From Picochlorum sp. 'celeri' (lineage: Eukaryota; Chlorophyta; Trebouxiophyceae): a stretch of DNA of 64,000 bases. The stretch's first letter is position 1. Each line of letters starts with the position of its first letter. The notes beneath the pieces are model-generated. The model worked only from the letters and a program-made list of their open reading frames with translations, was not told the origin of the DNA and made no database searches. The position numbers and the translations under genes were made by a program. Positions 4,275-50,437 of this stretch are shown here, piece by piece. The stretch lies in assembly GCA_010909725.1 (NCBI GenBank), contig JAACMV010000002.1, positions 868,001 through 932,000 on the forward strand, in the 5' to 3' direction.

Positions 4275-4552
4275 GCTATCAATCTATTCTAAAAACCGAT
4301 GACAATGTCCTCAAGCCATACGCGTGTGAAAAAAGAATCCTTGCAAAACTCTCACTACCACCAGTTCCCACACGCCAGTCTCTCTGGACACACCACACTG
4401 CTCTGTCTATCTCCCTCTCCCTCTCTCTCTAAAAGGTTTCAATTTCAACTCTACAGAGTTTGTCCATGCTCGGCGAGGACGTCAGTCTATGAGCGTGTAA
4501 GGCAATTACACAACGACGCCTTCCTTGTTTAAGGAGATTAGATACCCTGCTC

Positions 4553-5470
4553 ATGGCCAAGGGTGGCCATTGCCACACCCATTTCTCTACAAAGAATTCC
4601 AACCATTCTTCAAGAACCATGTCATTTGCTAGCTGTTCACGCATGCAGACAGCCTCGTGCTGCTCAACCTCGTCGTGTGGTGCTGGAGGTGGAGCAGCCA
4701 GATACTACGACAATCACCACAGACACAGCCAAAGAGTAGCATTTATTGGTAAAAATATCATTACTGTGTCGTATATGGGAAGAGCCAGTACAGGGAGGAG
4801 AGACCCAGTGACCAGACTGGTGACATGCATGGCGCACCCGAGACGAATGGCGCGAGTGTCGAAGCAGATTGAGAGGGAAATAGGTGCATTGTTCGTTTCT
4901 GATAAGGTTGTTCAAGAAGCAATTTGTCCAGAGAGGAAGCGTGGGATTGATGACGGTTTGTCGGCGTTGGCGTCGGTGACGGAGGTGGAAGTGTCCAATG
5001 ACTTGCAAGTCGCCAAGGTCTACCTCTCCATCTATAGCGATGCGGCGGGGAAAGCGATGGCGTTGCGTGGGTTACAGAGATTGGAAGGATATGTTCGAAA
5101 GCATATTGGGAGACAGATACGACTCAGACTGACCCCTGAGATTAGGTTTATTCTGGATGACTCTATTGAACGGAGTGAGCGGGTGCTGAGCTTGTTGAAG
5201 CAGGTTGAGAGGATCAAGTCTGGGAATGAACCCCCTCCTCCCTTGGTGTTGCCCTATGATGAGGAAGAAGATGATATTATTCTTCACCAAGAAGCGCCTA
5301 TTTCTGGGGTTGACTTGGGATTTTATGATGATGATGAGCAAGAGGCTGTGGAAGACCAAGGTGATGTGTCCCTGTCTGATTCTGATGTGCAAGAAATGCT
5401 CATGTTTTTCAAACAGGATGCTTCAGAACGAACATCTTCTCGGAATAAAAAATATAGAAAGAAGAATTAG
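4553..5470 (+). CDS. rbfA: Ribosome-binding factor A (RbfA), organelle-targeted
   Basis: RbfA binds the small ribosomal subunit near the 16S rRNA 5' helix and helps its maturation. Residues ~99-210 match the bacterial family: ARVSKQIEREIGALFVSDKV at the start, VTEVEVSNDLQVAKVYLSIY in the middle, RHIGRQIRLRLTPEI-type end (here KHIGRQIRLRLTPEIRFILD) followed by the S-R-LL helix. About 95 extra N-terminal residues rich in Ser, Arg, Cys and His look like a plastid or mitochondrial transit peptide; the acidic C-terminal 80 residues are extra. The ATG at 4553 is used, with an alternative at 4619. It converges with the HU-like gene. Plastid location is likely but inferred. Confidence 0.88.
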   Translation: MAKGGHCHTHFSTKNSNHSSRTMSFASCSRMQTASCCSTSSCGAGGGAARYYDNHHRHSQRVAFIGKNIITVSYMGRASTGRRDPVTRLVTCMAHPRRMARVSKQIEREIGALFVSDKVVQEAICPERKRGIDDGLSALASVTEVEVSNDLQVAKVYLSIYSDAAGKAMALRGLQRLEGYVRKHIGRQIRLRLTPEIRFILDDSIERSERVLSLLKQVERIKSGNEPPPPLVLPYDEEEDDIILHQEAPISGVDLGFYDDDEQEAVEDQGDVSLSDSDVQEMLMFFKQDASERTSSRNKKYRKKN

Positions 5471-5555
5471 ATATACCTGAGAGCAGTGGGGAAATTTTTG
5501 CCCAAGATGTGTACTGTACAGCACGCATTCGTTCATTCATTTGCTTGTTCATGTA

Positions 5556-5990
5556 TTATTCTTCTATATCAGTCGTAGATTGCATTTTCTGCTCTTGATA
5601 CCGCCCCTTCACCGCCGTTTTGAATCCCTGTGATGCTTTGAATGAAACAGATGCGGTTTCTGGGATGAACATGGCCTCCCCTGTTGCAGGGTTCCTGCCC
5701 TGTCGAGCACGCCGAACAGTTCTCTCGAATGATCCAAACCCAGTCACGGATACTTTATCTCCATTACTAACAGCCGCCATGATGGAATCAAACATGGAAT
5801 CCACAACGATTTTCGACGTTTCCTTTGTCAGCTGACACTTTTGAGAGACTATATTGACCAAATCCTGCTTTCCTAAATCAGCCCGAACTGATACCTGAGA
5901 ATATCTTCTAATTATTACTCGACCCATCCGTCCCATCTTTGAATGAAACAACACCCTGTGTGGGCGAATTCGAGAGACAAGACTGGTCAT
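5556..5990 (-). CDS. HU/IHF-family DNA-binding protein, probably organellar nucleoid protein
   Basis: HU proteins are small dimeric DNA-bending proteins that compact bacterial and plastid nucleoids. The mature part follows the HU pattern: LGKQDLVNIVSQKCQLTK, then VDSMFDSIMAAVSNGDKVSVTGFGSFE, then RQGRNPATGEAMFIP (the DNA-intercalating beta-arm motif GRNPATG) and KASQGFKTAVKGR. The ATG at 5990 is chosen because it leaves a basic, acid-free leader typical of an organelle transit peptide and a 91-nt spacer to the BTB-Kelch stop; the frame extends to 6101 but that would leave almost no promoter. A short C-terminal tail follows the HU fold. Nuclear location implies transfer from the endosymbiont. 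Confidence 0.9.
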   Translation of the reverse strand: MTSLVSRIRPHRVLFHSKMGRMGRVIIRRYSQVSVRADLGKQDLVNIVSQKCQLTKETSKIVVDSMFDSIMAAVSNGDKVSVTGFGSFERTVRRARQGRNPATGEAMFIPETASVSFKASQGFKTAVKGRYQEQKMQSTTDIEE

Positions 5991-6081
5991 GGAAATTGTC
6001 TTTTCTTTTTTTGAATGCTTTTCCGTATTCTTTACACAAGACGTTTTCGCAACAACAATATATAAGAATCGATATGTATTA

Positions 6082-8049
6082 TTAAAAAGAAGCGAGAGCA
6101 AGGTTGGCTCTTGGGATATTCATTGATGAATAGCATTGGTTCCAGCTATTTGTTCGGATGGAATACCAAAACATTCGATTCGTTTCAGATCCATCATACC
6201 CTACTCTCCCCCCGGCAATGAATGTAGACTCATTGTTCAACACGCATGATGCTGCACTGCTGATTGTCTCTGGAAGAGATTCGAATTGTCTCCATTTCCC
6301 TGCACGAGGATCATACGCTTCTACTGTACATAGCCTTGTTCTATTACCATCCAAGCCTCCAATCACAATGATGTTTCCCCTGATTGTCGTCACAGTAGCA
6401 TATTTCCTCGGTACAGACATCCGTGCGCTCGATACAAACCATGCATCTCGTTCTGGTTCGTACCATTCCATGGTATCATGTGTCTGGCGAAGGCTCTGTC
6501 CTCCAATACACCAGATTCTTCCGTATACAGCGCATGCATCCAGCGAAGCTCGATAATGATTCATTGGGGCAAGTTTCTTCCAAGTACCCGTTGAAGATTC
6601 AAAGCATTCGTTCAAATTCCCTGGATGTCTATCCTTTCCTTGAGTGGCTCGTCCACCCAACACAAACACATCATTTCCAAGAGAGACGCACGCAGAGTTG
6701 ACTCTTGGAGTGTATGCAGAATCATTCTGATGTACATGCCATTGGCTTTCTTCTGGCATATACTGCAGGAGAGACGCGCCAGCAAACTTGCCTGCAATGT
6801 ATATTTGGCCATTGGCACATTTACATGCATGCCCAAAAGAGCATTCAAGAGGCATATCTGGGCCTCGTGACCATGTTTCTGATACAACATCATAAATCTC
6901 AGTTGATCGTAATGACTGCCATGCATTGCAAATGCCGCCAGATGCAATCAATTGGGTCTCCCCCCAATATTCACGATGAATCTGGCCATTTTCATCTTCA
7001 TGCATTCCATACACACGTTTGTACGAGTATGTCATGCTAGGATCAGACGATGACACAAGAGACCCTTGAATATACTGTCGAACGTGTTCAATGAGTTCAT
7101 CTTGGACGAGCGGCTCTTTTCCTTCTTCCTGCGTCTTCAGGTCTTTCAGCAATTGACATGCCATGTCAAGCTCATCAGAGTAAAACACAATTTCACTCCG
7201 ATCAAGTAAGTACACAACATCATCTTTTTTATCCATGGAATCTCTTGCCCAGAGAATTGCAGCAGACAACGCATCTGCTTCTCTGTACAGGCAGGATGAT
7301 CCAGCCCGAACTGACAAGGCATCCAGCATGAAATCCCTTGACAACACACACAACGACCTCGCCCCTTCTACTGATCTCAATAAACTGCCCAAATTATCCT
7401 TTAAAAACATTTTAGCGGCAATATATACATCGACGCAGTCATATCGCTCCGCCAACAGGAGAATGTCAATGACATTCCCTACATGCATCTTGGCTCGCAG
7501 ATAGTCAGATGACACCTCCATAACAGTCTGAACTGATAAATACGACGCCGCCCCAAGAAGCTTTGGAACTTTGGTAGATGCATCCTTCTGAATAATGTTC
7601 TCCTCCAAAAACGCACACCGCGCCGCACTCGTATCAGGCAGCCTACTGTACACAATCTTTAAAAGCATGTGCAGGGTTGCTCCATCCACATGTTCAACAT
7701 GCACACAAGACCGTGCATTCTCAATCATATTGGAGCTCGCCCCTGCAAACATGGCTCTAAAATATGGACTATGCGCTGCCAAAACCACCTTGTGTGCCGA
7801 GATGCACGTCCCATCACTCGTAAGCAGGTCTACATCCACCAGAGACTGACTCTCAAAGAGGTCCATAAACCCCAAAGATTCATCATGCCGCTCAGACACA
7901 GTATGGCAGGGTTCTCCACATTTCATAACATCTTCTGAATATGTCATGGTATCCGTTGCAGAAGCCATGCGCTGTTCTCCCTCCAGCGGTGCCATAGATT
8001 CCCGTGGAAGAAAATCACGAGACGACACCGAACCAAACCTTTGCTCCAT
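6082..8049 (-). CDS. BTB-BACK-Kelch protein, likely CUL3 ubiquitin-ligase adaptor
   Basis: The 655-residue protein has a BTB domain at ~65-165 (VDVDLLTSDGTCISAHKVVL, HSPYFRAMFAG), a BACK region at ~175-290 (ERYDCVDVYIAAKMFLKDNL) and Kelch repeats at ~365-655, each with the paired Gly motif and spaced Tyr/Trp (YIAGKFAG, FVLGGRATQGK, WCIGGQSL, IVIGGLDGN, FIAGGRVG). Such proteins bind CUL3 through BTB-BACK and present substrates through the Kelch propeller. Full three-part BTB-BACK-Kelch proteins are common in animals and much rarer in plants, where F-box Kelch proteins prevail. The start at 8049 has a TATA motif 24 bases upstream. Substrate unknown. Confidence 0.88.
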   Translation of the reverse strand: MEQRFGSVSSRDFLPRESMAPLEGEQRMASATDTMTYSEDVMKCGEPCHTVSERHDESLGFMDLFESQSLVDVDLLTSDGTCISAHKVVLAAHSPYFRAMFAGASSNMIENARSCVHVEHVDGATLHMLLKIVYSRLPDTSAARCAFLEENIIQKDASTKVPKLLGAASYLSVQTVMEVSSDYLRAKMHVGNVIDILLLAERYDCVDVYIAAKMFLKDNLGSLLRSVEGARSLCVLSRDFMLDALSVRAGSSCLYREADALSAAILWARDSMDKKDDVVYLLDRSEIVFYSDELDMACQLLKDLKTQEEGKEPLVQDELIEHVRQYIQGSLVSSSDPSMTYSYKRVYGMHEDENGQIHREYWGETQLIASGGICNAWQSLRSTEIYDVVSETWSRGPDMPLECSFGHACKCANGQIYIAGKFAGASLLQYMPEESQWHVHQNDSAYTPRVNSACVSLGNDVFVLGGRATQGKDRHPGNLNECFESSTGTWKKLAPMNHYRASLDACAVYGRIWCIGGQSLRQTHDTMEWYEPERDAWFVSSARMSVPRKYATVTTIRGNIIVIGGLDGNRTRLCTVEAYDPRAGKWRQFESLPETISSAASCVLNNESTFIAGGRVGYDGSETNRMFWYSIRTNSWNQCYSSMNIPRANLALASF

Positions 8050-40367: not shown

Positions 40368-41390
40368 TTACGAGTCTACAAGGTCAGAAGAAGGCTCATT
40401 CTTACGCCGAAATGCTCTCAATTCATCCCTCAACCTTGCTGCTTCCTCAAAGCGTTGGTCCTCAAGCGCTGTCTCGATAGCAATCACAAGAGAAAGGGAT
40501 CTATCAGATGCCAAGAGTTTATCAATGACATCTCGGAGCTTCGTGGCATCTTCAAAGCGCTCCTCTGCAATTGCCAACTGCAGCTGCAACTTGTGCATCA
40601 TAGTTGGGTCATTATACAATAAAATCTCCTCCTTGCACGACCTGATGATCTCATTATGCTGTTTCAGTAACGCTCTATCTGTTTCAGAGCCATGCAAGGT
40701 AAATGGACTACCACCTTGCTTTTCATGGCTCTGCCCAGGGTGAGCCATTTTGGCAGCCACATCCTTGTTCACATAAATCGGCACATGAAATCGTGCGGCC
40801 ATATTAATCGCATCCGAGGGCCGCGAATCAACATCAAATTCGTCTTCTTCAGTGTCACCCTCGCCACTCAACAGGTGAATTCTTGCATGGTAAATATTCC
40901 CAACGAGCGCCGTAATCCTCACCTTGGTCACTCGATATCCCATGATATCTATCAAATTTTTCAACAAATCATGTGTTCCAGGGCGAGGCAGATTTCTCTT
41001 GTGAATTTCTTTAATCAATGCACCACATTCATACTCCCCAATATACACTGGAAGAATACTGTTCTGTCCATCTTTCAACTTTAGAAAAATCACATTCCCT
41101 TGGCCCTCTGCTGTCCTCACTTCACTGATCTCTGCCTCATGGTACATACTAATATCGAATTGAGAACCATCTCCTCCAGCCTTGGCCTTGAAACAATCAT
41201 GTGTACTATGGCGCCGCCCCACATACAGCCGCTTTGGATGTCCATCCCACCACCTCCACGCATCCTGACCCTTCTTGACCATCACAGCAGTCATCACCCT
41301 CCTTGTGTCTTTCAGGCACACCGTAGGACATTTTCCTACCAACGTAAGCTTTGTTGTACTGAAAGCAACAGAGCAACAACACGTCATCAT
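40368..41390 (-). CDS. Bifunctional nuclease domain (DUF151/BBD) protein with UVR motifs, plastid-type
   Basis: DUF151 proteins have reported DNase/RNase activity; plant BBD proteins combine this domain with UVR motifs. The domain covers ~90-220: ISEVRTAEGQGNVIFLKLKD, LPVYIGEYECGALI, PRPGTHDLLKNLIDIMGYRV, FDVDSRPSDAINMAARFHVP and IYVNKDVAAKM. Two UVR-like helical motifs follow (LQLAIAEERFEDATKLRDVI and ETALEDQRFEEAARLRDEL). The first ~80 residues are basic and Thr/Ser-rich, suitable as a plastid transit peptide. The frame start at 41399 is a TTG; ATG at 41390 is chosen. 340 residues. Activity is inferred from family. Confidence 0.88.
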   Translation of the reverse strand: MMTCCCSVAFSTTKLTLVGKCPTVCLKDTRRVMTAVMVKKGQDAWRWWDGHPKRLYVGRRHSTHDCFKAKAGGDGSQFDISMYHEAEISEVRTAEGQGNVIFLKLKDGQNSILPVYIGEYECGALIKEIHKRNLPRPGTHDLLKNLIDIMGYRVTKVRITALVGNIYHARIHLLSGEGDTEEDEFDVDSRPSDAINMAARFHVPIYVNKDVAAKMAHPGQSHEKQGGSPFTLHGSETDRALLKQHNEIIRSCKEEILLYNDPTMMHKLQLQLAIAEERFEDATKLRDVIDKLLASDRSLSLVIAIETALEDQRFEEAARLRDELRAFRRKNEPSSDLVDS

Positions 41391-41615
41391 ATCTGTCAAA
41401 TCAAACTACCGCCGTTGGGAGAAGAGCAAATAATATTAAGTGTTCTAGCCCTTGCACAAATCTTCCACAAACCCAGGGTTTTGATGTATCCTACAGAGAC
41501 ATATATCTACATTACATTTCACCATGTTGCACCATATGCCCCAGCAAGTTCCCAACACGACAGAGTGTCGGAGGTGTCGGAATTCCAACTACTGACCCTG
41601 TCGACCCTACCATAC

Positions 41616-42038: not shown

Positions 42039-42171
42039 ATCTTGGAGGATGCCGGGTTTTTTGGTGGTTGGCCTGTGACAGCAGTGCATGTTCTTCCTGC
42101 TTTTTCCCATGTAGCTGAATTGATTGATGAAACAAGGAATAGTTTTTTTTTTGATGATGAGATGTTCCAGA

Positions 42172-43692
42172 ATGCCTGTTTGGGTGGTTGTATTACTCGT
42201 GTCAACGACAATTCTGACGCTGCAAGCCCAGGTACAAGGTTGTTCCAGCAGCAAAGATGCTCACAATCTTCTTCTAGTTACAGTAGTAGAGGATGATCAT
42301 CCGGCGTTGAATCGGGTATTTGGTGCTCTGGTTTTGAAGATGGCAAGGTCATTCTCTCCTCGATATGCACGGGTGGCGTGTTATAGGCAACCAGGGCATG
42401 TTGTGGAGTCTCGGGTGTATCTTGGTTCGTCAGAAGAGCAGGTGCTGGATAGATTTGACCGTGGTTCGTACGAATGGTGTGGAATGGGATATATGATGAA
42501 TAAAACGATGCGGCATGGTAGGAGAACGGCTCGTCGTGGAAGCACAGATGATGAAGGAAGCAGCATGGGCTTATTCTGTGAGGCTCGTATTCCTGTTGTG
42601 TGCAGTCAGTATGTTGTAGGAGTGGATGTGTTGAATGGTCGTCGAAGCCTTCTAGATGGGTATGGATTAAAGCGGATGAAATTATTGGATAGGAATCAGG
42701 AAGGTGGGGACCAATGGCAGATTCGTGTTCAACGCCATGGAGGTGATGATGGTTCATTGTTCCAGGAAGAGTATCGCAACACGTGTATTGTGGAGGATGT
42801 GAAGCGGTTTTCTATATATAGATTAGGAGTATGGGTTTTTGGTGTATGTATTGTGTCATTTGCACCCATACTGAGCAAATCGACGTCTTTCAGGCTCACT
42901 GGAGGATCCCTGGCGTTTGTCATACTGTCTGGTGTATTTCTCTTGTACATTGTGTGGAAGAATGTTCCTCAGAAAAAGGCCATCCTGTCATCATTCGTGC
43001 TTTTCGGTAGTGCTTTGATTGGATGTATCAAGTTCTTTGGGATGAATATATCGTCGATATTGAGTAACCCACTGTACTCTTCCCTACTAGCGGCATACTT
43101 GGTTGCTAGTGGTCTTGTGGGTGCAGCAATCACATATTATTTCAATGATGAGTCGAATGAGAAGTTGAGCACGCTGTTGAGGGTAGCATTGCAAATGTTT
43201 GGGGTGTTTATTATGTATATGAGCACGACTTCTCCTGAGGCTGCTGTGCTGTTGATTTGCTTGTGGATGGTGTACCAGAGTGGTGTGATGCCAAGGATTT
43301 GGAAGCATCGGGTAGGCAGGGGGCTGACACTGCGTGCTTCTCAGGATGTCGTCGATACTCCTGCTGAAGAAAATGGAGAATCTCCTCTTCACCCCTCAGG
43401 TATTGCCGCGAGGACTCCAGAGCCGTGGGATGGAAAATCCCCTGGCCGTTCAGAGACACCAGGTACTCCTACAGTTTTCCGTGTGTCCACAGTCACTCTT
43501 CCTCCAACGCCCGAGGATTTCACAGATCAACAAAATTTGCACGAGTTAGTACAGCGAGGTAAAATTCTGAATGTGGAAACGGATAGGGCAATAGCAATCG
43601 GAAAGGGAACATATAATACGTTGTTCATGAAAGGGTATGAGGTTGATTTTGAAAAGGGAACCATTACCCCTCCAGATAAAAAGACAAGATAG
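42172..43692 (+). CDS. NEMP-family nuclear envelope membrane protein (TMEM194/PNET2-like)
   Basis: NEMP proteins sit in the inner nuclear membrane and interact with lamina or chromatin. Signal peptide (MPVWVVVLLVSTTILTLQAQ), a ~170-residue luminal part with Cys and Asn-glycosylation sites, then about five membrane spans: RLGVWVFGVCIVSFAPILS, LAFVILSGVFLLYIVW, KAILSSFVLFGSALI, LLAAYLVASGLVGAAITYYF and MFGVFIMYMST. This order, and the nucleoplasmic C-terminal tail with TP-rich phosphosites (RTPEPW, SETPGTP), match the NEMP/PNET2 family. The start is placed at the ATG at 42172 because it gives the signal peptide; Met codons exist at 42127 and 42154. 506 residues. Confidence 0.8.
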   Translation: MPVWVVVLLVSTTILTLQAQVQGCSSSKDAHNLLLVTVVEDDHPALNRVFGALVLKMARSFSPRYARVACYRQPGHVVESRVYLGSSEEQVLDRFDRGSYEWCGMGYMMNKTMRHGRRTARRGSTDDEGSSMGLFCEARIPVVCSQYVVGVDVLNGRRSLLDGYGLKRMKLLDRNQEGGDQWQIRVQRHGGDDGSLFQEEYRNTCIVEDVKRFSIYRLGVWVFGVCIVSFAPILSKSTSFRLTGGSLAFVILSGVFLLYIVWKNVPQKKAILSSFVLFGSALIGCIKFFGMNISSILSNPLYSSLLAAYLVASGLVGAAITYYFNDESNEKLSTLLRVALQMFGVFIMYMSTTSPEAAVLLICLWMVYQSGVMPRIWKHRVGRGLTLRASQDVVDTPAEENGESPLHPSGIAARTPEPWDGKSPGRSETPGTPTVFRVSTVTLPPTPEDFTDQQNLHELVQRGKILNVETDRAIAIGKGTYNTLFMKGYEVDFEKGTITPPDKKTR

Positions 43693-43755
43693 AAAGATTA
43701 CATGAATACTGATGAAATATACATTTGTTAGTTTTATTCTTCTGGCAATAAAATG

Positions 43756-46700
43756 TCAATCAATAAGAATCTCTGTTGATTTTACTCTCTTGAGTTGGGA
43801 GCGGTATGAGGCATTCAAACGGGTCACTTTCTTCTCTAATGCATGCGCTTCAGAAAATTGCTTTTTCATCTTAAGAGTGTTTGCTAGCTCTTGAAGGGAT
43901 GCTACGTGCTTGCTATCAATGGCAATAGCTTTCCGCAACAGCCTTTCAGACTCGTCCAGATCTCCAAGCAATCTTTCAAGTCTGCCCAGTGATGAAAGTG
44001 CCCTTCTACTCTTGGGTTTCAACTCCAATACCTTTCGATACAAAAGTCTGGCGTCACTATTAAGTCCATTTTCTTCTTCTAGCTTTGCCCAACCATGCAA
44101 TGCAGCCCTGCACGTTGGGTGGGCATCAATGCACTGCTTGAACAGATCCCTGGCTTTGTTGATATACCCGGCATTTGATTCTGCAACTGCCCATGCTTGA
44201 AGAATGTACTGGTTTGACTCCTCCAGCGAACACGCAGCCTGAAAGAGTTTCCTAGCATACTCCAGGTTATTCAAAGAAGCCTCCATCTTCCCCCAAGCTT
44301 GCAACGCTGGCAAATAACGCTTGTCAGCCCTGACTGCAGCTTTGAACAGTTTTCGAGCCTCTTGGTATGCCCCTGTCTCTGCCTTCACCTTTCCAGCAAG
44401 TGTCAGTATGTATGGATTGCTCTGATCCACCTCCAACGCTTCCGAGCACAGTCTTGCAGCGACAACGAGATCATTTAATTTCCATTCCCGGGTTGCCCAA
44501 GAGCACAAGAGCTTTCCCAGGCGCATATTGCTCTCTTTCACATCAGAGAGCTTCTTCAAAGATCTCACACCCTTCTGGAATAAAATTCTCGCTGGACCAT
44601 CGTTGCGCATATCAAACTCAAGCAGTGCCCAAGATGTAAACACCCGAGCTAGTGATCTCCTTCTCTCATCTGGATCCTCAACCAATTCAAATTGCTCTAT
44701 AGCAGCTCTTAAAAACACTCTCACTGTCGCAGCATTGCTGTATTGGATCTTTCGACGAGCTCTCTGGCGCTCAATACCAGCAAGTTGAGCCCAGATTGAT
44801 CCATCGTCTGGATTTCGCATTGCCTCGCCAAGAAGCAACATGTATCCAGCTTGATACTCCCCTTGTTGGACAAGTTTCCGGAAGAAACTGCTCACGTCAC
44901 GACCATGTCTCATTTTTGGCGCGAACACTCCTAATGTAGCAGCTTCTGCTTCCAGAGATTCTGCCAACAAAAGAGCATCCTTTGTGGCAGGACATGCTGT
45001 TGGGGGAGAATCATTGGCATCGACTTTGAATGCAATACCAGGCTCTGCCAAGCAAATGACATCCCCTGGAAATAAGTGAACCTCTTTGAATGGTTGAATT
45101 TTTGACCTGTTGACCCAAACTCCATTGGTCGATCCCATATCCATGATGACACACTTTGAAATGCCATTCACCCTGTCCCGAATGACTTCAAAACGAGCAT
45201 GCTTCCCAGAAACAGTAGGGATGTCGATAATATAGTCGTTGTCCTTATTATGGACGGCACCAAATATCACCGGACCATGGCGAGGAAGCGTAATCTGATT
45301 CTTTGGGACTTTCTTGCCAGCACAGTTCTCGACAGTTATGGCTGACAGTCCTTCAAGAGACCACGTTGCTTCAATCTTTTCTGTCCCAGCTTTACCAAAT
45401 AATCTTCGGAAGCCATGCATCGCATTATCAAATGATGACGCATAATTCGGTTCAGATGGGGTCGCCTGGACGTTCTCCTCGCGTGTGGATGGGGGATCTG
45501 CAGGCACTGCTGGAGGTGGGCCAATCTCTGGCTGCACTCTTGCGTCAAATGATTCGTGTTCTTGATCAATTGTTATGACCGTTGAACGACCATATCCACT
45601 TCCATTCCTCACTGTGCTTTCATTTCTCTTCGTACCAGGTTCATCTCCCAAGTCTTCAAAGCTGCTGCCACTGGACAGATGATCCTCACCATCTCTGAAC
45701 ACACGGGTCCTATATCTCCCTCCAGATCTCCCAGAAATACTGTCCCTCCCCCAGACATGAAGTGCATTATCCTGTGATCTATTAGATATAATCGGGCCTT
45801 TAGAGTTTTCCTCAAGGTCAGAAGAGGTCACTTGTGTCAGAGACTGCGCATATGTCTCATCCATTTGGGCAATAGCAGAAGAAAGCCCCATTAACTTTTG
45901 AAACTCCATGAACTCTTCGAGCGAGATCACTCCATCACTATTTGTATCGAATTTTTTCAACAATTCTTCGGCGCCCATGACACTTGTATCTCCCAGCTCT
46001 TCCATAACCTCGTGCAACTCACTCAAAGACACCTCTCCATCACCATTCAGGTCAATTGATCTAAACAACGCTTCTCCAACGTTTGAATACTGTTCTTCGT
46101 CAGAAGAAGTAGATAACCAAGAGGTTATTTGATCCAAGTTCTTCCCCTGTATTTCCTGCAGATTCTGTGCTTGTGCAACAGACAGTCCACCCTTGTATGC
46201 ACCATGTGCAGCATCTCCTTTCTCCGCCATATGGTGCATCTGTTCCGTACGAATTTGCAGCTCTACCATTGTAACTTCATCTTGCACACCATCAGCCATG
46301 ACAACAGTTCTATGCAGGCTTGAGTACCCATTTGGTTTTGGAGATGCAATGTAATCTTTCGATCGCGACTCAATCACAGGCCACATTTCTGCAGCAACTC
46401 GTTCTACAATATAGCATCCTTCTATAGCAGCACGTTCACTATCTTCAAGATCATCTCGAGGCAAGACAATGGCACGGAGTCCCAACACATCAAACACCTC
46501 CTCTCTCTTCCTTCCACCTTGACTCAAATCACCCAAACGTAACAACTTCTTCAGCGTGCTAATGGCAGACTTTGTCCGTGATTCTACCTGAATACCACCA
46601 GCAACCTCGGAAAACTTGGGGTACGATGCCACTGCAGTCTCTAGATTTTTCCTTGCTGATTCCAGTATCGCATCATGTTGAGACACATATGTATTCAACC

Positions 46701-47691
46701 AATCCAACGTCTTTTTATACGAGGAAGGAAACAACAGCTCTAAACTAAGATTCTCTAGCGCCAAACTCTCTCTTTTAATACCCAAAGCATGCCCCAGTGG
46801 AGCATACACTTGCAACGCTTCCAATGCCAAACAATGATACAATGCCTGCGACGCCCCAGCACCTCTTCGCTGTATCTCCTCCAGCGTCATCAGTCGATTT
46901 ATAACCTCAATACCGGTAGCATTAATATCATAAAACGCCAGACACATGTCTCTAATCGCAGCAGCCGCATCATCATCATACACATCAATCCGCTGTGGCA
47001 GCTTGGACACTTTCACCACATCCTGACTCATCTGAGCCACATTTTTTCCCACTTTATCACTAATCATCTTGAACGGAAACACATTCGCAGAACCATACAC
47101 GGTAGAGACAATGGCCGCAGCTATAACATCACAGGTAACCCAGGTATCCTTGCCAGAGCATGGCAGTTCTGCCAACCTCACAGCCAACGCGACACCTCGA
47201 GACAGAAAATGAGGCGCCATTTCAGAGCTTCCCAGACATACTCGCATCGCTTGCGCCACAACATTTGGATCTCCTGGCAAACTCTGCAACCCAGCTGACA
47301 AACTCTCCCACAGCCCCATCAGATGCAATAACGACGACTGATGTTGCCCTACATCGTGCCCATGCCTGAGAATATCTCTATCAGAATATATATCGATAAT
47401 CTGCTCATCATCGCTCGCCGACGAGTCTCTGTACTGCACTCTTCCAACTCTGGGAATATCTCTGCTGCTACTTGGACGCAAAGTACGGGACAAATACAGC
47501 CCTAATCCCGGATGAAAATCATGCACATTACCATATGACGCTATCCGAGTGCCCATGTGATTCCTACCATCCCGAACGCCCACACGTGGGCGTTGCGATA
47601 TTCTGTGGCAGTCAGAGCAACTTGGAACCTCCCGTCCCCTCGAACGAGCAGACTCTTTACTCGGAAGACCACAATACCACTGACTCGACAT
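43756..47691 (-). CDS. CRSH: RelA/SpoT-like (p)ppGpp synthetase with EF-hands, FHA domain and HAT/TPR repeats (giant CRSH fusion)
   Basis: One unbroken 1311-codon frame. Residues ~150-260 are the HD hydrolase region with the catalytic HD replaced (IAAAIVSTVYGSA where family has LLHDVVEDT). Residues ~370-500 are an intact synthetase: VFDVLGLRAIV, KDYIASPKPNGYSSLHR, VELQIRTEQMHHMAEKGDAA. Two EF-hands follow: DLNGDGEVSLSE (547-558) and DTNSDGVISLEE (582-593), so synthesis should be Ca2+-regulated as in plant CRSH. An FHA domain (~805-890; SGKHARFE, MGSTNGVWVN) and about eight HAT/TPR-type repeats (~960-1290, e.g. ARKLFQAACSLEE, DLFKQCIDAHP) complete it. Plant CRSH proteins end after the EF-hands. 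Plastid role is inferred; no transit peptide is obvious. Confidence 0.88.
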   Translation of the reverse strand: MSSQWYCGLPSKESARSRGREVPSCSDCHRISQRPRVGVRDGRNHMGTRIASYGNVHDFHPGLGLYLSRTLRPSSSRDIPRVGRVQYRDSSASDDEQIIDIYSDRDILRHGHDVGQHQSSLLHLMGLWESLSAGLQSLPGDPNVVAQAMRVCLGSSEMAPHFLSRGVALAVRLAELPCSGKDTWVTCDVIAAAIVSTVYGSANVFPFKMISDKVGKNVAQMSQDVVKVSKLPQRIDVYDDDAAAAIRDMCLAFYDINATGIEVINRLMTLEEIQRRGAGASQALYHCLALEALQVYAPLGHALGIKRESLALENLSLELLFPSSYKKTLDWLNTYVSQHDAILESARKNLETAVASYPKFSEVAGGIQVESRTKSAISTLKKLLRLGDLSQGGRKREEVFDVLGLRAIVLPRDDLEDSERAAIEGCYIVERVAAEMWPVIESRSKDYIASPKPNGYSSLHRTVVMADGVQDEVTMVELQIRTEQMHHMAEKGDAAHGAYKGGLSVAQAQNLQEIQGKNLDQITSWLSTSSDEEQYSNVGEALFRSIDLNGDGEVSLSELHEVMEELGDTSVMGAEELLKKFDTNSDGVISLEEFMEFQKLMGLSSAIAQMDETYAQSLTQVTSSDLEENSKGPIISNRSQDNALHVWGRDSISGRSGGRYRTRVFRDGEDHLSSGSSFEDLGDEPGTKRNESTVRNGSGYGRSTVITIDQEHESFDARVQPEIGPPPAVPADPPSTREENVQATPSEPNYASSFDNAMHGFRRLFGKAGTEKIEATWSLEGLSAITVENCAGKKVPKNQITLPRHGPVIFGAVHNKDNDYIIDIPTVSGKHARFEVIRDRVNGISKCVIMDMGSTNGVWVNRSKIQPFKEVHLFPGDVICLAEPGIAFKVDANDSPPTACPATKDALLLAESLEAEAATLGVFAPKMRHGRDVSSFFRKLVQQGEYQAGYMLLLGEAMRNPDDGSIWAQLAGIERQRARRKIQYSNAATVRVFLRAAIEQFELVEDPDERRRSLARVFTSWALLEFDMRNDGPARILFQKGVRSLKKLSDVKESNMRLGKLLCSWATREWKLNDLVVAARLCSEALEVDQSNPYILTLAGKVKAETGAYQEARKLFKAAVRADKRYLPALQAWGKMEASLNNLEYARKLFQAACSLEESNQYILQAWAVAESNAGYINKARDLFKQCIDAHPTCRAALHGWAKLEEENGLNSDARLLYRKVLELKPKSRRALSSLGRLERLLGDLDESERLLRKAIAIDSKHVASLQELANTLKMKKQFSEAHALEKKVTRLNASYRSQLKRVKSTEILID

Positions 47692-48045: not shown

Positions 48046-49370
48046 ATGGGTGTAGAACAGCACACACGGGATGATCAACAGGAATTGAAGGATGAGGTCG
48101 ATTTTAAGATTGTTTTGGCCCGCCAGGTGGGTTGCTGTTTGATTATTTTGTACATATGTGTCACTAGTAGTAGTTGGCCAGCGAGACAAGCCTGCATTCT
48201 GTTGTCAGTTGGATGAAAACTGATCGTGACATTGAGTGTTTGCAGATTTTTGACTATGATTTGCGTCGTCAGGAGTCCGCGTTCACAGATGAGGAGGAAT
48301 CAAAATGTCGGGCTGATATAGTCGAGAAGCTGAAGGAGCGCGAGATGGGGCCTGTGTATGAGCGTGTGTGTGCTCAGCTTGGTTGGGATGTGGATGACAT
48401 GGTGCTTTCGAGTATGAAAGAGGTGAATGAGAAGAAGATTCGGGAGCTTGATGATGCTATTACGAATGCCAAAGAGAATGAAGGGGAGATGGAGGTGAGG
48501 GATGCGATGGTGAGCAAGGCTGACTATTATGCTCAGGTGGGAGACCAGAGCAAGGCTGGGGAGGCGTTTGAAGAGGCGGTTGGCAAGACTGCTGGGGCTG
48601 GTCCCAAGTTGGATTTGTCGTTTTCTCTATTGAGACTTCACTTGTCGTTGAGGGATTGGGTAGCGTATAAAAAGGAGCTGGAAAAGGCGTGGGATTTGTG
48701 TTCCAAAGGGGGAGACTGGGAGAGGAAGAATAAGCTCAAGGTGTATGAGGCTCTTTATTTGATGGCAACGAGGCAGTTTGAGGGGGCTGCAGAGTTGTTT
48801 TTAAACTCTATTGCAACGTTTACAGCGACAGAGCTGATGAGTTATGAATCGTGTGTGTTCTATACCGTAGTGTTAGCTGTTGTGTCTCTGGACAGGCCAG
48901 CATTGTTGGCCAAGGTTGTGGAGAATCCTGAAATCCTGGCAGCCATTGATGCTGTTCCGCATTTGAGAGAGCTGCTCACGTCGCTCTATCAATGTCAATA
49001 TGCACTGTTCTTCAAATCATTGGTGGAAATATCAGATGTCATTAAAGCCGATATGTTGCTGCATCCTCATTATAGATATTACCTCAAAGAGGCCAGGGTT
49101 GTTGTGTACTCGCAATATCTTCAGAGTTACAAATCTGTCAAGATGACGGGTATGGCGTCAGCTTTTGGTGTGTCTGTCGATTTCATAGATGATGAGCTAT
49201 CGAATCTGATTGTCGAAGGGCGATTGCCAGCAAAATTAGACAGGGTGGATGGCGTGATTTATACCACCCGTCCAGATCCAAAGAATGCTGCATACCAGCA
49301 GACAATTCGCCAAGGGGATCACCTCCTGAACAAGCTGCAGAAATTATCTAAACTTACAGATGTAGAATGA
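48046..49370 (+). CDS. RPN7: 26S proteasome lid subunit RPN7 (PSMD6), two exons
   Basis: RPN7 is a PCI-domain subunit of the proteasome 19S lid. Exon 1 (48046-48126) encodes MGVEQHTRDDQQELKDEV and DFKIVLARQ; exon 2 (48246-49370) resumes at IFDYDLRRQES after a 119-nt intron. The apparent start of the long frame at 48174 is a TTG inside that intron. Family landmarks: GPVYERVCAQLGWDVDD, RDAMVSKADYYAQVGD, GGDWERKNKLKVYEALY, AAELFLNSIATFT, YALFFKSLVE, HPHYRYYLKEARVVVYSQYL and FGVSVDFIDDELS (PCI). 401 residues, close to human PSMD6 (389). Only 6 bases separate it from the RAD51D end. Confidence 0.94.
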
Positions 49371-49376
49371 TGTAAT

Positions 49377-50315
49377 TCAATAAATATCAAAATCGACGCA
49401 TGCGCCCGACGGCATGTTGGTACTCTGATGGAGGAATGCCCGTCTCGCTCTGCTACTTCCCTGGTGGTGGTGGGACGTGTCATCTTGATGCATCACCAGC
49501 TGCAACCGGACATGCGGCTGACCCACCCACGTTTCCCCCAGTGCCGCTCTCTTCATATAAAAAGCATCGTCTTCGCTAGAGAGATGACCCGACGGCTGTC
49601 CATACTCCCCCCCGATGGTGTAATTCGTCACAAGTACTGCCACATGATGCTCTGCAGCAATCCTTTTTAAATGCATGGCCATGCGACTGAGAACATCATG
49701 CCCAGCGTCGTAGGCCACCCCACCAAGCATGGGTGCTACAAGACTCCCTAAACAGTCTATAATAATCATGGATGGCGTCGACGTCTTCAAGGCTTGCTGC
49801 AACTCATGCAACAAATCATCCATCCGATGCACATTCAACACAGTGACGCAGTCAAGAGCATCTTCAGCCCGCCGGAACGCTGTATTTGACACATTCCCTA
49901 TAATACTCACCAACCTAGAAGCTCTAAAAGAATTACCAGTATCGATATAGATGACGCGTTCCCCTCTACTGGCCGTCACAGCAGCTGCTGTGTGGCACAA
50001 TTGAGTCTTGCCAGTCCCAGCATCCCCAAACACCTCCATCAAATGACCTTCGAGCAACCCACCCTGCAGCATCTCATCAATCTTTGTACACCCAAGGGGA
50101 AGACACCTAGAATTCTCCATGCTACGTATCAAGTCCTTCCCATTCATCCTGAGAGCAGCTCGAGCCTGGACCGAATGCAGTGCCTCCTCCAGGGTCCCCC
50201 TCTGAGACTCGTCATTCAAAATCCATTCAGGCACATCCTCATCCCCTCGAGCCGTCACTAATAAAGAAACTAATTTTCTGTGTGATATATCATGCACCGC
50301 TGTATCATCAGGCAT
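49377..50315 (-). CDS. RAD51D: RAD51D-like RecA-family recombination protein
   Basis: RAD51D belongs to the BCDX2 complex of RAD51 paralogs. Visible: LPLGCTKIDEMLQGGLLEGH, Walker A GDAGTGKTQLC, YIDTGNSFRASRL, Walker B SMIIIDCLGSLVAPMLGG (the PLLGG after Walker B is a RAD51D trait), VLVTNYTIGG and ALGETWVGQPHVRL. The N-terminal ~90 residues are shorter than the animal form but helical. The frame opens with GTG at 50351; the ATG at 50315 (MPDDTAVHDIS) is chosen. XRCC3 or XRCC2 are less likely because of the APMLGG motif. 312 residues. RAD51C lies in the same window at 17 kb. Confidence 0.83.
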   Translation of the reverse strand: MPDDTAVHDISHRKLVSLLVTARGDEDVPEWILNDESQRGTLEEALHSVQARAALRMNGKDLIRSMENSRCLPLGCTKIDEMLQGGLLEGHLMEVFGDAGTGKTQLCHTAAAVTASRGERVIYIDTGNSFRASRLVSIIGNVSNTAFRRAEDALDCVTVLNVHRMDDLLHELQQALKTSTPSMIIIDCLGSLVAPMLGGVAYDAGHDVLSRMAMHLKRIAAEHHVAVLVTNYTIGGEYGQPSGHLSSEDDAFYMKRAALGETWVGQPHVRLQLVMHQDDTSHHHQGSSRARRAFLHQSTNMPSGACVDFDIY

Positions 50316-50437
50316 CCTGCGATTACTTCCGTTGTCTACCCAACACAACACATGACGTTACAAATCGGTCTCTATACCGCTATTCTCGTGGGTTTTACAT
50401 CAGAAACATAGTCACGATATCGAATATGGGCAAATTT

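Follow-up and report, generated by a model that had tools for sequence, protein, structure and literature searches.

The window analysed here is a stretch of 64,000 nucleotides from the green alga Picochlorum sp. 'celeri' (contig JAACMV010000002.1, positions 868,001 to 932,000), and the gene under study lies at 43756-47691 on its minus strand, the strand of all features described below unless stated otherwise. The gene consists of a single frame of 1311 codons without internal stop and encodes, in this order, a degenerate HD hydrolase domain, a RelA/SpoT synthetase domain, two EF-hands, an FHA domain and a series of helical repeats. Comparison with related sequences confirms the fusion, its conservation and the residues discussed below, and supports one genuine nuclear gene for a RelA/SpoT homologue (RSH) of the RSH4/CRSH type, that is a predicted synthetase of guanosine tetra- and pentaphosphate ((p)ppGpp). 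The assembly is reported as a phased diploid of 27.43 Mbp in two sets of 15 scaffolds with 46% G+C (PMC7225527), while the G+C content of the window is 43-48%.

The domains were placed by Pfam. The HD domain (46777-47130; HD_4, residues 188-305, 40.7 bits) is followed by the synthetase domain (46189-46581; RelA_SpoT, residues 371-501, 83.2 bits for a cut-off of 27) and by EF-hands spanning residues 541-598 (EF-hand_7, 542-597, 47.2 bits), with their loops at 46018-46053 (DLNGDGEVSLSE) and 45913-45948 (DTNSDGVISLEE). The FHA domain (45013-45306, residues 796-893) is recognized at 816-881 with 48.1 bits for a cut-off of 20.7, starting from profile position 7, and is predicted as strands in an AlphaFold model with a predicted local distance difference test score (pLDDT) of about 90. 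The repeat array (43804-44904, residues 930-1296) matches several TPR families, with the best stretches within 1073-1292. All these matches exceed the curated cut-offs, so that the domains which a first-pass annotation, made from the sequence alone, had placed in one frame are all recovered; in an NCBIfam scan every match fell under its curated cut-off.

Two segments of the protein are variable. The N-terminal 110 residues (47362-47691) are basic (isoelectric point (pI) 9.56), with a median identity of 0.17 over residues 1-115, and form a candidate plastid transit peptide; the first 60 residues carry a net positive charge in 10 of the 13 proteins inspected, the transit-peptide character being judged on charge alone. 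The linker between EF-hands and FHA domain (45421-45861, residues 611-757) is acidic (pI 4.60) and has the same low median identity of 0.17 over residues 611-755. Between the two haplotypes, nonsynonymous divergence (dN, 0.020) exceeds synonymous divergence (dS, 0.010) in this linker (residues 611-760, 45412-45861), on 8 differences, which is unique among the six segments tested.

The allele of the second haplotype (L009, contig C22) is likewise an intact frame of 1311 codons. It differs at 40 nucleotides, of which 8, 6 and 26 fall at codon positions 1, 2 and 3, giving dN 0.0046, dS 0.030 and a dN/dS ratio of about 0.16. A homologue search that admitted proteins of 721-2294 residues, with scoring limited to the 7994 candidates that had the most words in common, returned 57 proteins at E <= 0.001. 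RelA, EF, FHA and TPR families occur jointly in 32 of these 57 matches (precomputed Pfam lists, counted by hand), and the fusion is therefore a conserved gene and not an artefact; the search for the architecture in other algae had been proposed earlier. The four-part architecture is found in Nannochloris, Chlorella vulgaris (P0031), Micractinium, Parachlorella, Coccomyxa, Myrmecia and Ulva (the last named from its JGI code). Two Trebouxia proteins and P0039 are listed with RelA and TPR families and no FHA family, and no EF family is listed for P0037 and P0041; by eye, P0037 agrees with the Tetraselmis record P0122 over their common N-terminal part. No land plant occurs among the matches of this search, and in a separate search with the RSH part (residues 101-621), which admitted proteins of about 286-911 residues, the land-plant CRSH proteins terminate after the EF-hands. 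The tail is also missing from the Haematococcus protein P0093 and the related transcript P0085, for which no EF family is listed, P0085 showing one EF-like loop by eye. Three other RSH-only forms close to the window protein were rejected as true variants, since P0036, P0081 and P0019 look like broken gene calls: P0036 has an RSH part nearly identical to that of P0011 and an FHA region out of frame (by eye), and the longest contig listed for both P0081 and P0019 is 7147 nucleotides.

An RSH tree separates 58 RSH4-like proteins from five bacterial and two of the alga's own RSHs (Shimodaira-Hasegawa-like approximate likelihood ratio test 99), and the window protein groups with land-plant CRSH, apart from these seven other RSHs; the tree was built without plant RSH1, RSH2/3 and the third own RSH, and long branches were flagged by the tool. 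P0120 falls among the algae. On this tree, with the broken gene calls included, the fusion requires six changes. It requires four in a second tree, from which P0036, P0081, P0019 and 12 proteins thinned for closeness were left out; there, constraining all 36 algal proteins together was not rejected (approximately unbiased test, p-AU 0.704), nor was constraining the 34 that remain without P0085 and P0093 (p-AU 0.122). The deepest fusion protein, P0045, sits on a long branch. A single early chlorophyte origin of the fusion, followed by losses, is allowed by these results.

Residue conservation was followed in an alignment of 38 proteins, comprising the window protein and the matches of at least 950 residues up to P0045, with P0036 excluded; P0017, P0018, P0019, P0021, P0032 and P0033 were excluded for length. 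Several of these proteins are closely related, so that counts over the 38 are not independent.

Support is found for the earlier suggestion that the repeats are of the HAT type and resemble plastid RNA-maturation proteins. The signature W-x3-E-x8/9-A-R occurs five times in the window protein, at spacings of 34-68 residues, and shuffled versions of its tail average 0.007 occurrences. It is present at least three times in 26 of the 38 fusion proteins. Among the HAT-like proteins P0065-P0071, the three scanned of the seven (P0065, P0066 and P0068) contain 5, 6 and 6 copies, while 16 of 20 generic TPR matches have none and the other four at most two. The nearest relative of the array in the same genome, L027 (E 2.5e-17; 44% identity over 112 residues, 27% over about 320), also contains five copies, and L028 none. 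L027 is presumably an HCF107/MBB1-like protein; no RSH, EF or FHA domain is listed for it, unlike the window protein, with whose tail it shares the W-x3-E...A-R repeats and basic charge. The tail (930-1311) has a pI of 9.65, compared with 5.62 for the RSH part, 4.05 for the EF-hands and 4.60 for the linker, and lies above pI 9 in 32 of the 38 fusion proteins, a value reached by only one of the 20 TPR controls taken at full length. HAT proteins such as NAC2, MAC1 and MBB1 are reported to stabilize chloroplast mRNAs (PMC8635915). A link of the window protein with plastid RNA is plausible on these grounds, and its array would bind RNA.

Several observations favour a rival reading, a protein-protein scaffold that binds no RNA, in which array and FHA domain together would attach the enzyme to a protein complex of the plastid. 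A model of the FHA-HAT part (mean pLDDT 93.6, predicted template modelling score (pTM) 0.88) presents the array as a run of helices whose best structural matches are protein-binding TPR superhelices, a search that does not separate HAT from TPR and whose VIA-align rows span model residues 161-532, hence leaving the FHA part outside the comparison. The tail also scores higher with TPR than with HAT models (HAT_Syf1 reaches 31.0 for a cut-off of 27 when the C-terminal 401 residues are scanned alone and 26.2 in the full protein), and the Ulva protein has no HAT signature at all. The ranking of Pfam models does not decide the matter, however, because the HCF107-like L027 likewise obtains a better score from TPR_16 than from HAT models. 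Against the scaffold, the signature and basic charge are common to the window tail and HCF107-like proteins. The protein scaffold is a serious possibility, but the less probable of the two.

The RSH core is, judged by its residues, that of an RSH4/CRSH enzyme predicted to lack hydrolase activity. The positions of the HDxxED motif are occupied by S196, T197, G200 and S201, and none of the 38 proteins keeps both the His and the Asp, in line with the degenerate HD domain first described. In the synthetase domain, R372, K374, S378, D401, R406, K445, D446, Y456, E477 and Q479 are present in all 38, with a median identity to the window protein of 0.56, and a model of the RSH-EF part (mean pLDDT 82.1, pTM 0.70) matches Rel enzymes, with 6s2t as the best, being uninformative on a Ca2+ switch. 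The synthetase had been called intact, which holds for these ten residues and less so for the position just before R372, where alignment and published data (PMC6881373) place the equivalent of G240 of RelSeq. This position is Ser371 in the window protein, and over the 38 proteins the column contains Gly 17 times, Ser 8, Ala 5, Thr 4, Cys 2, Asn 1 and Trp 1. Bacterial RSHs are reported to require this glycine, and RSHs that lack it have been inferred to be inactive (PMC6881373); by that criterion the window protein would be no more than a Ca2+-regulated scaffold with a dead synthetase. Such an outcome is unlikely, given the ten other conserved residues, the Gly retained in 17 of the 38 proteins and the reported activity of the diatom synthetases RSH4a and RSH4b, which have Ala and Ser at this position (PMC6881373). 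Because of these active diatom enzymes, activity of the window synthetase is considered likely but not certain.

Both EF-hands noted earlier have canonical loops in the window protein, the first being canonical in all 38 proteins and the second in 27. Land-plant CRSH is reported to be activated by Ca2+ (PMC10107265), and synthetase activity and Ca2+ gating of the window protein are taken from the family by analogy. The land-plant RSH4/CRSH P0096 (Arabidopsis lyrata cluster) has the same degenerate HD domain, synthetase and two C-terminal EF-hands, with 35% identity over 89% of residues 101-621, but its 583 residues stop after the EF-hands, without FHA domain or repeats. Statements in two reviews on the occurrence of such proteins diverge: RSH4 is said to be confined to land plants (PMC5633626), and algae are described in one place as lacking EF-hand RSHs and in another as having them in some green algae (PMC10107265). 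The sequences compared here side with EF-hand RSHs occurring in some green algae.

The extension beyond the EF-hands, thought to be new when first noticed, is partly known. PMC6881373 mentions a 'forkhead domain' for the RSH4 of Chlorella variabilis and, with reference to Ito 2017, TPRs for RSH4 of green algae; both the family and the kind of extension are those seen here. In the accessible portions of that paper these additions are taken singly, with no mention of FHA domain and repeats as a unit, of a lost FHA arginine or of HAT character. Literature searches for the combination, with Ito 2017 and supplements outside their coverage, returned no paper on RSH, EF-hands, FHA and repeats as one unit.

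The FHA domain is as conserved as the catalytic one (median identity 0.54 vs 0.56 for the synthetase). The residue after a conserved Gly, which is the phosphothreonine-contacting Arg of FHA domains, is Ala812 in the window protein, and the column contains 32 Ala, 5 Gly and 1 Met. Substitution of this critical Arg is reported to abolish FHA-dependent interactions (PMC11326605), and since it is absent from all 38 proteins, the reading of phosphothreonine that had been proposed for the domain is doubtful. A survey of the genome gave 26 FHA matches forming 13 loci by pairs; of the 12 others, inspected in one haplotype each, nine have G-R, one has an Arg at the start of the open stretch, one a Lys and one a Ser, the last three by score being weak FHA matches. 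A canonical phosphothreonine reader tying kinase signalling to ppGpp would agree with the clear Pfam match, with the level of identity and with the presence of Ser828, His831 and Asn856 in 36, 37 and 35 of the 38 proteins; it is nevertheless improbable in view of the missing Arg, which most other FHA loci of the alga retain, and of the two Trebouxia proteins (P0042 and P0043), in whose FHA region the conserved Ser and Asn are missing as well, although these proteins still have the repeat array. Against sequences in the PDB the FHA stretch gave weak matches only (best E 1.1e-4). A precedent, and no relative, is the FHA domain of afadin, an animal protein with a PDZ-domain partner, which is reported to lack the basic residues for phosphothreonine and to bind its partner independently of phosphate (PMC9355967). 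Given this precedent and the conservation of an Arg-less domain, the window FHA is probably kept for a phosphate-independent contact; it looks like a domain retained for something besides canonical phosphopeptide binding.

TGTAA is the poly(A) signal of green algae. No TGTAA is present inside the frame 43756-47691, and one, a candidate signal, lies at 43698-43702, 53 nucleotides beyond the stop. A misassembly or an overlooked gene boundary that makes two adjacent genes look like a single one is highly improbable. In its favour, a Met at position 758 does precede the FHA domain, and the Picochlorum renovo gene model P0060 (358 residues) does span the repeat part alone, starting at M927, but this model looks faulty, because by eye it is about one repeat short and has out-of-frame residues. 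Against it, the frame is free of TGTAA, and the presence of the same join in both haplotypes and in many species led to the rejection of an assembly artefact or of the merging sequencing error that the first-pass annotation had raised.

Taken together, the data can be read as a Ca2+-gated plastid ppGpp synthetase whose FHA-HAT tail is a targeting module that tethers it to plastid RNA or ribonucleoprotein, a reading to which we give even odds (about 0.5). Binding of Ca2+ to the EF-hands would switch on the synthetase, as in land-plant CRSH, while the basic HCF107/MBB1-type HAT superhelix would keep it bound to RNA or ribonucleoprotein of the plastid, with the Arg-less FHA domain as a surface for contacts independent of phosphate. 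Synthesis of the alarmone would then take place beside the plastid gene-expression machinery. The fusion bears on the way in which ppGpp influences gene expression in chloroplasts, the plant plastid RNA polymerase being described as devoid of both ppGpp-binding sites known in Escherichia coli (PMC10107265). The conserved covalent tie between synthetase and HAT repeats would point to RNA or ribonucleoprotein as the site of synthesis, and this is testable in a fast-growing alga. A bolder version, which we regard as rather unlikely, anchors the synthetase on specific plastid transcripts recognized by the HAT tail, where Ca2+ would fire ppGpp synthesis with the Arg-less FHA domain as phosphate-independent coupler, in an architecture of early chlorophytes lost in a Haematococcus-like lineage. 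If true, ppGpp would be a local signal to selected genes of the plastid and not a diffuse one.

The genome contains four RSH genes (eight RelA_SpoT matches falling into four pairs). The three others all keep the hydrolase H-D pair, one of them with the whole HDxxED motif (by eye), and could be the source of hydrolysis. Two RSH genes in the same orientation adjoin on contig C6, at about 256-262 kb (L010:1410-3950 and 4331-6898, minus strand). The first reads ISRKSLYS at the GR.K...S site of active RSHs (by eye) and may be a hydrolase-only enzyme, like plant RSH1.

Around the fusion gene, a NEMP-family gene (42124-43692, plus strand) lies tail to tail with it, 63 nucleotides separating both frames, and the gene at 40368-41399 (minus strand) encodes a protein in which a bifunctional-nuclease domain is combined with two UVR motifs. 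On the other side, a gene for a Rad51-type ATPase (49377-50351, minus strand) adjoins that of the proteasome subunit RPN7 (48174-49370, plus strand).

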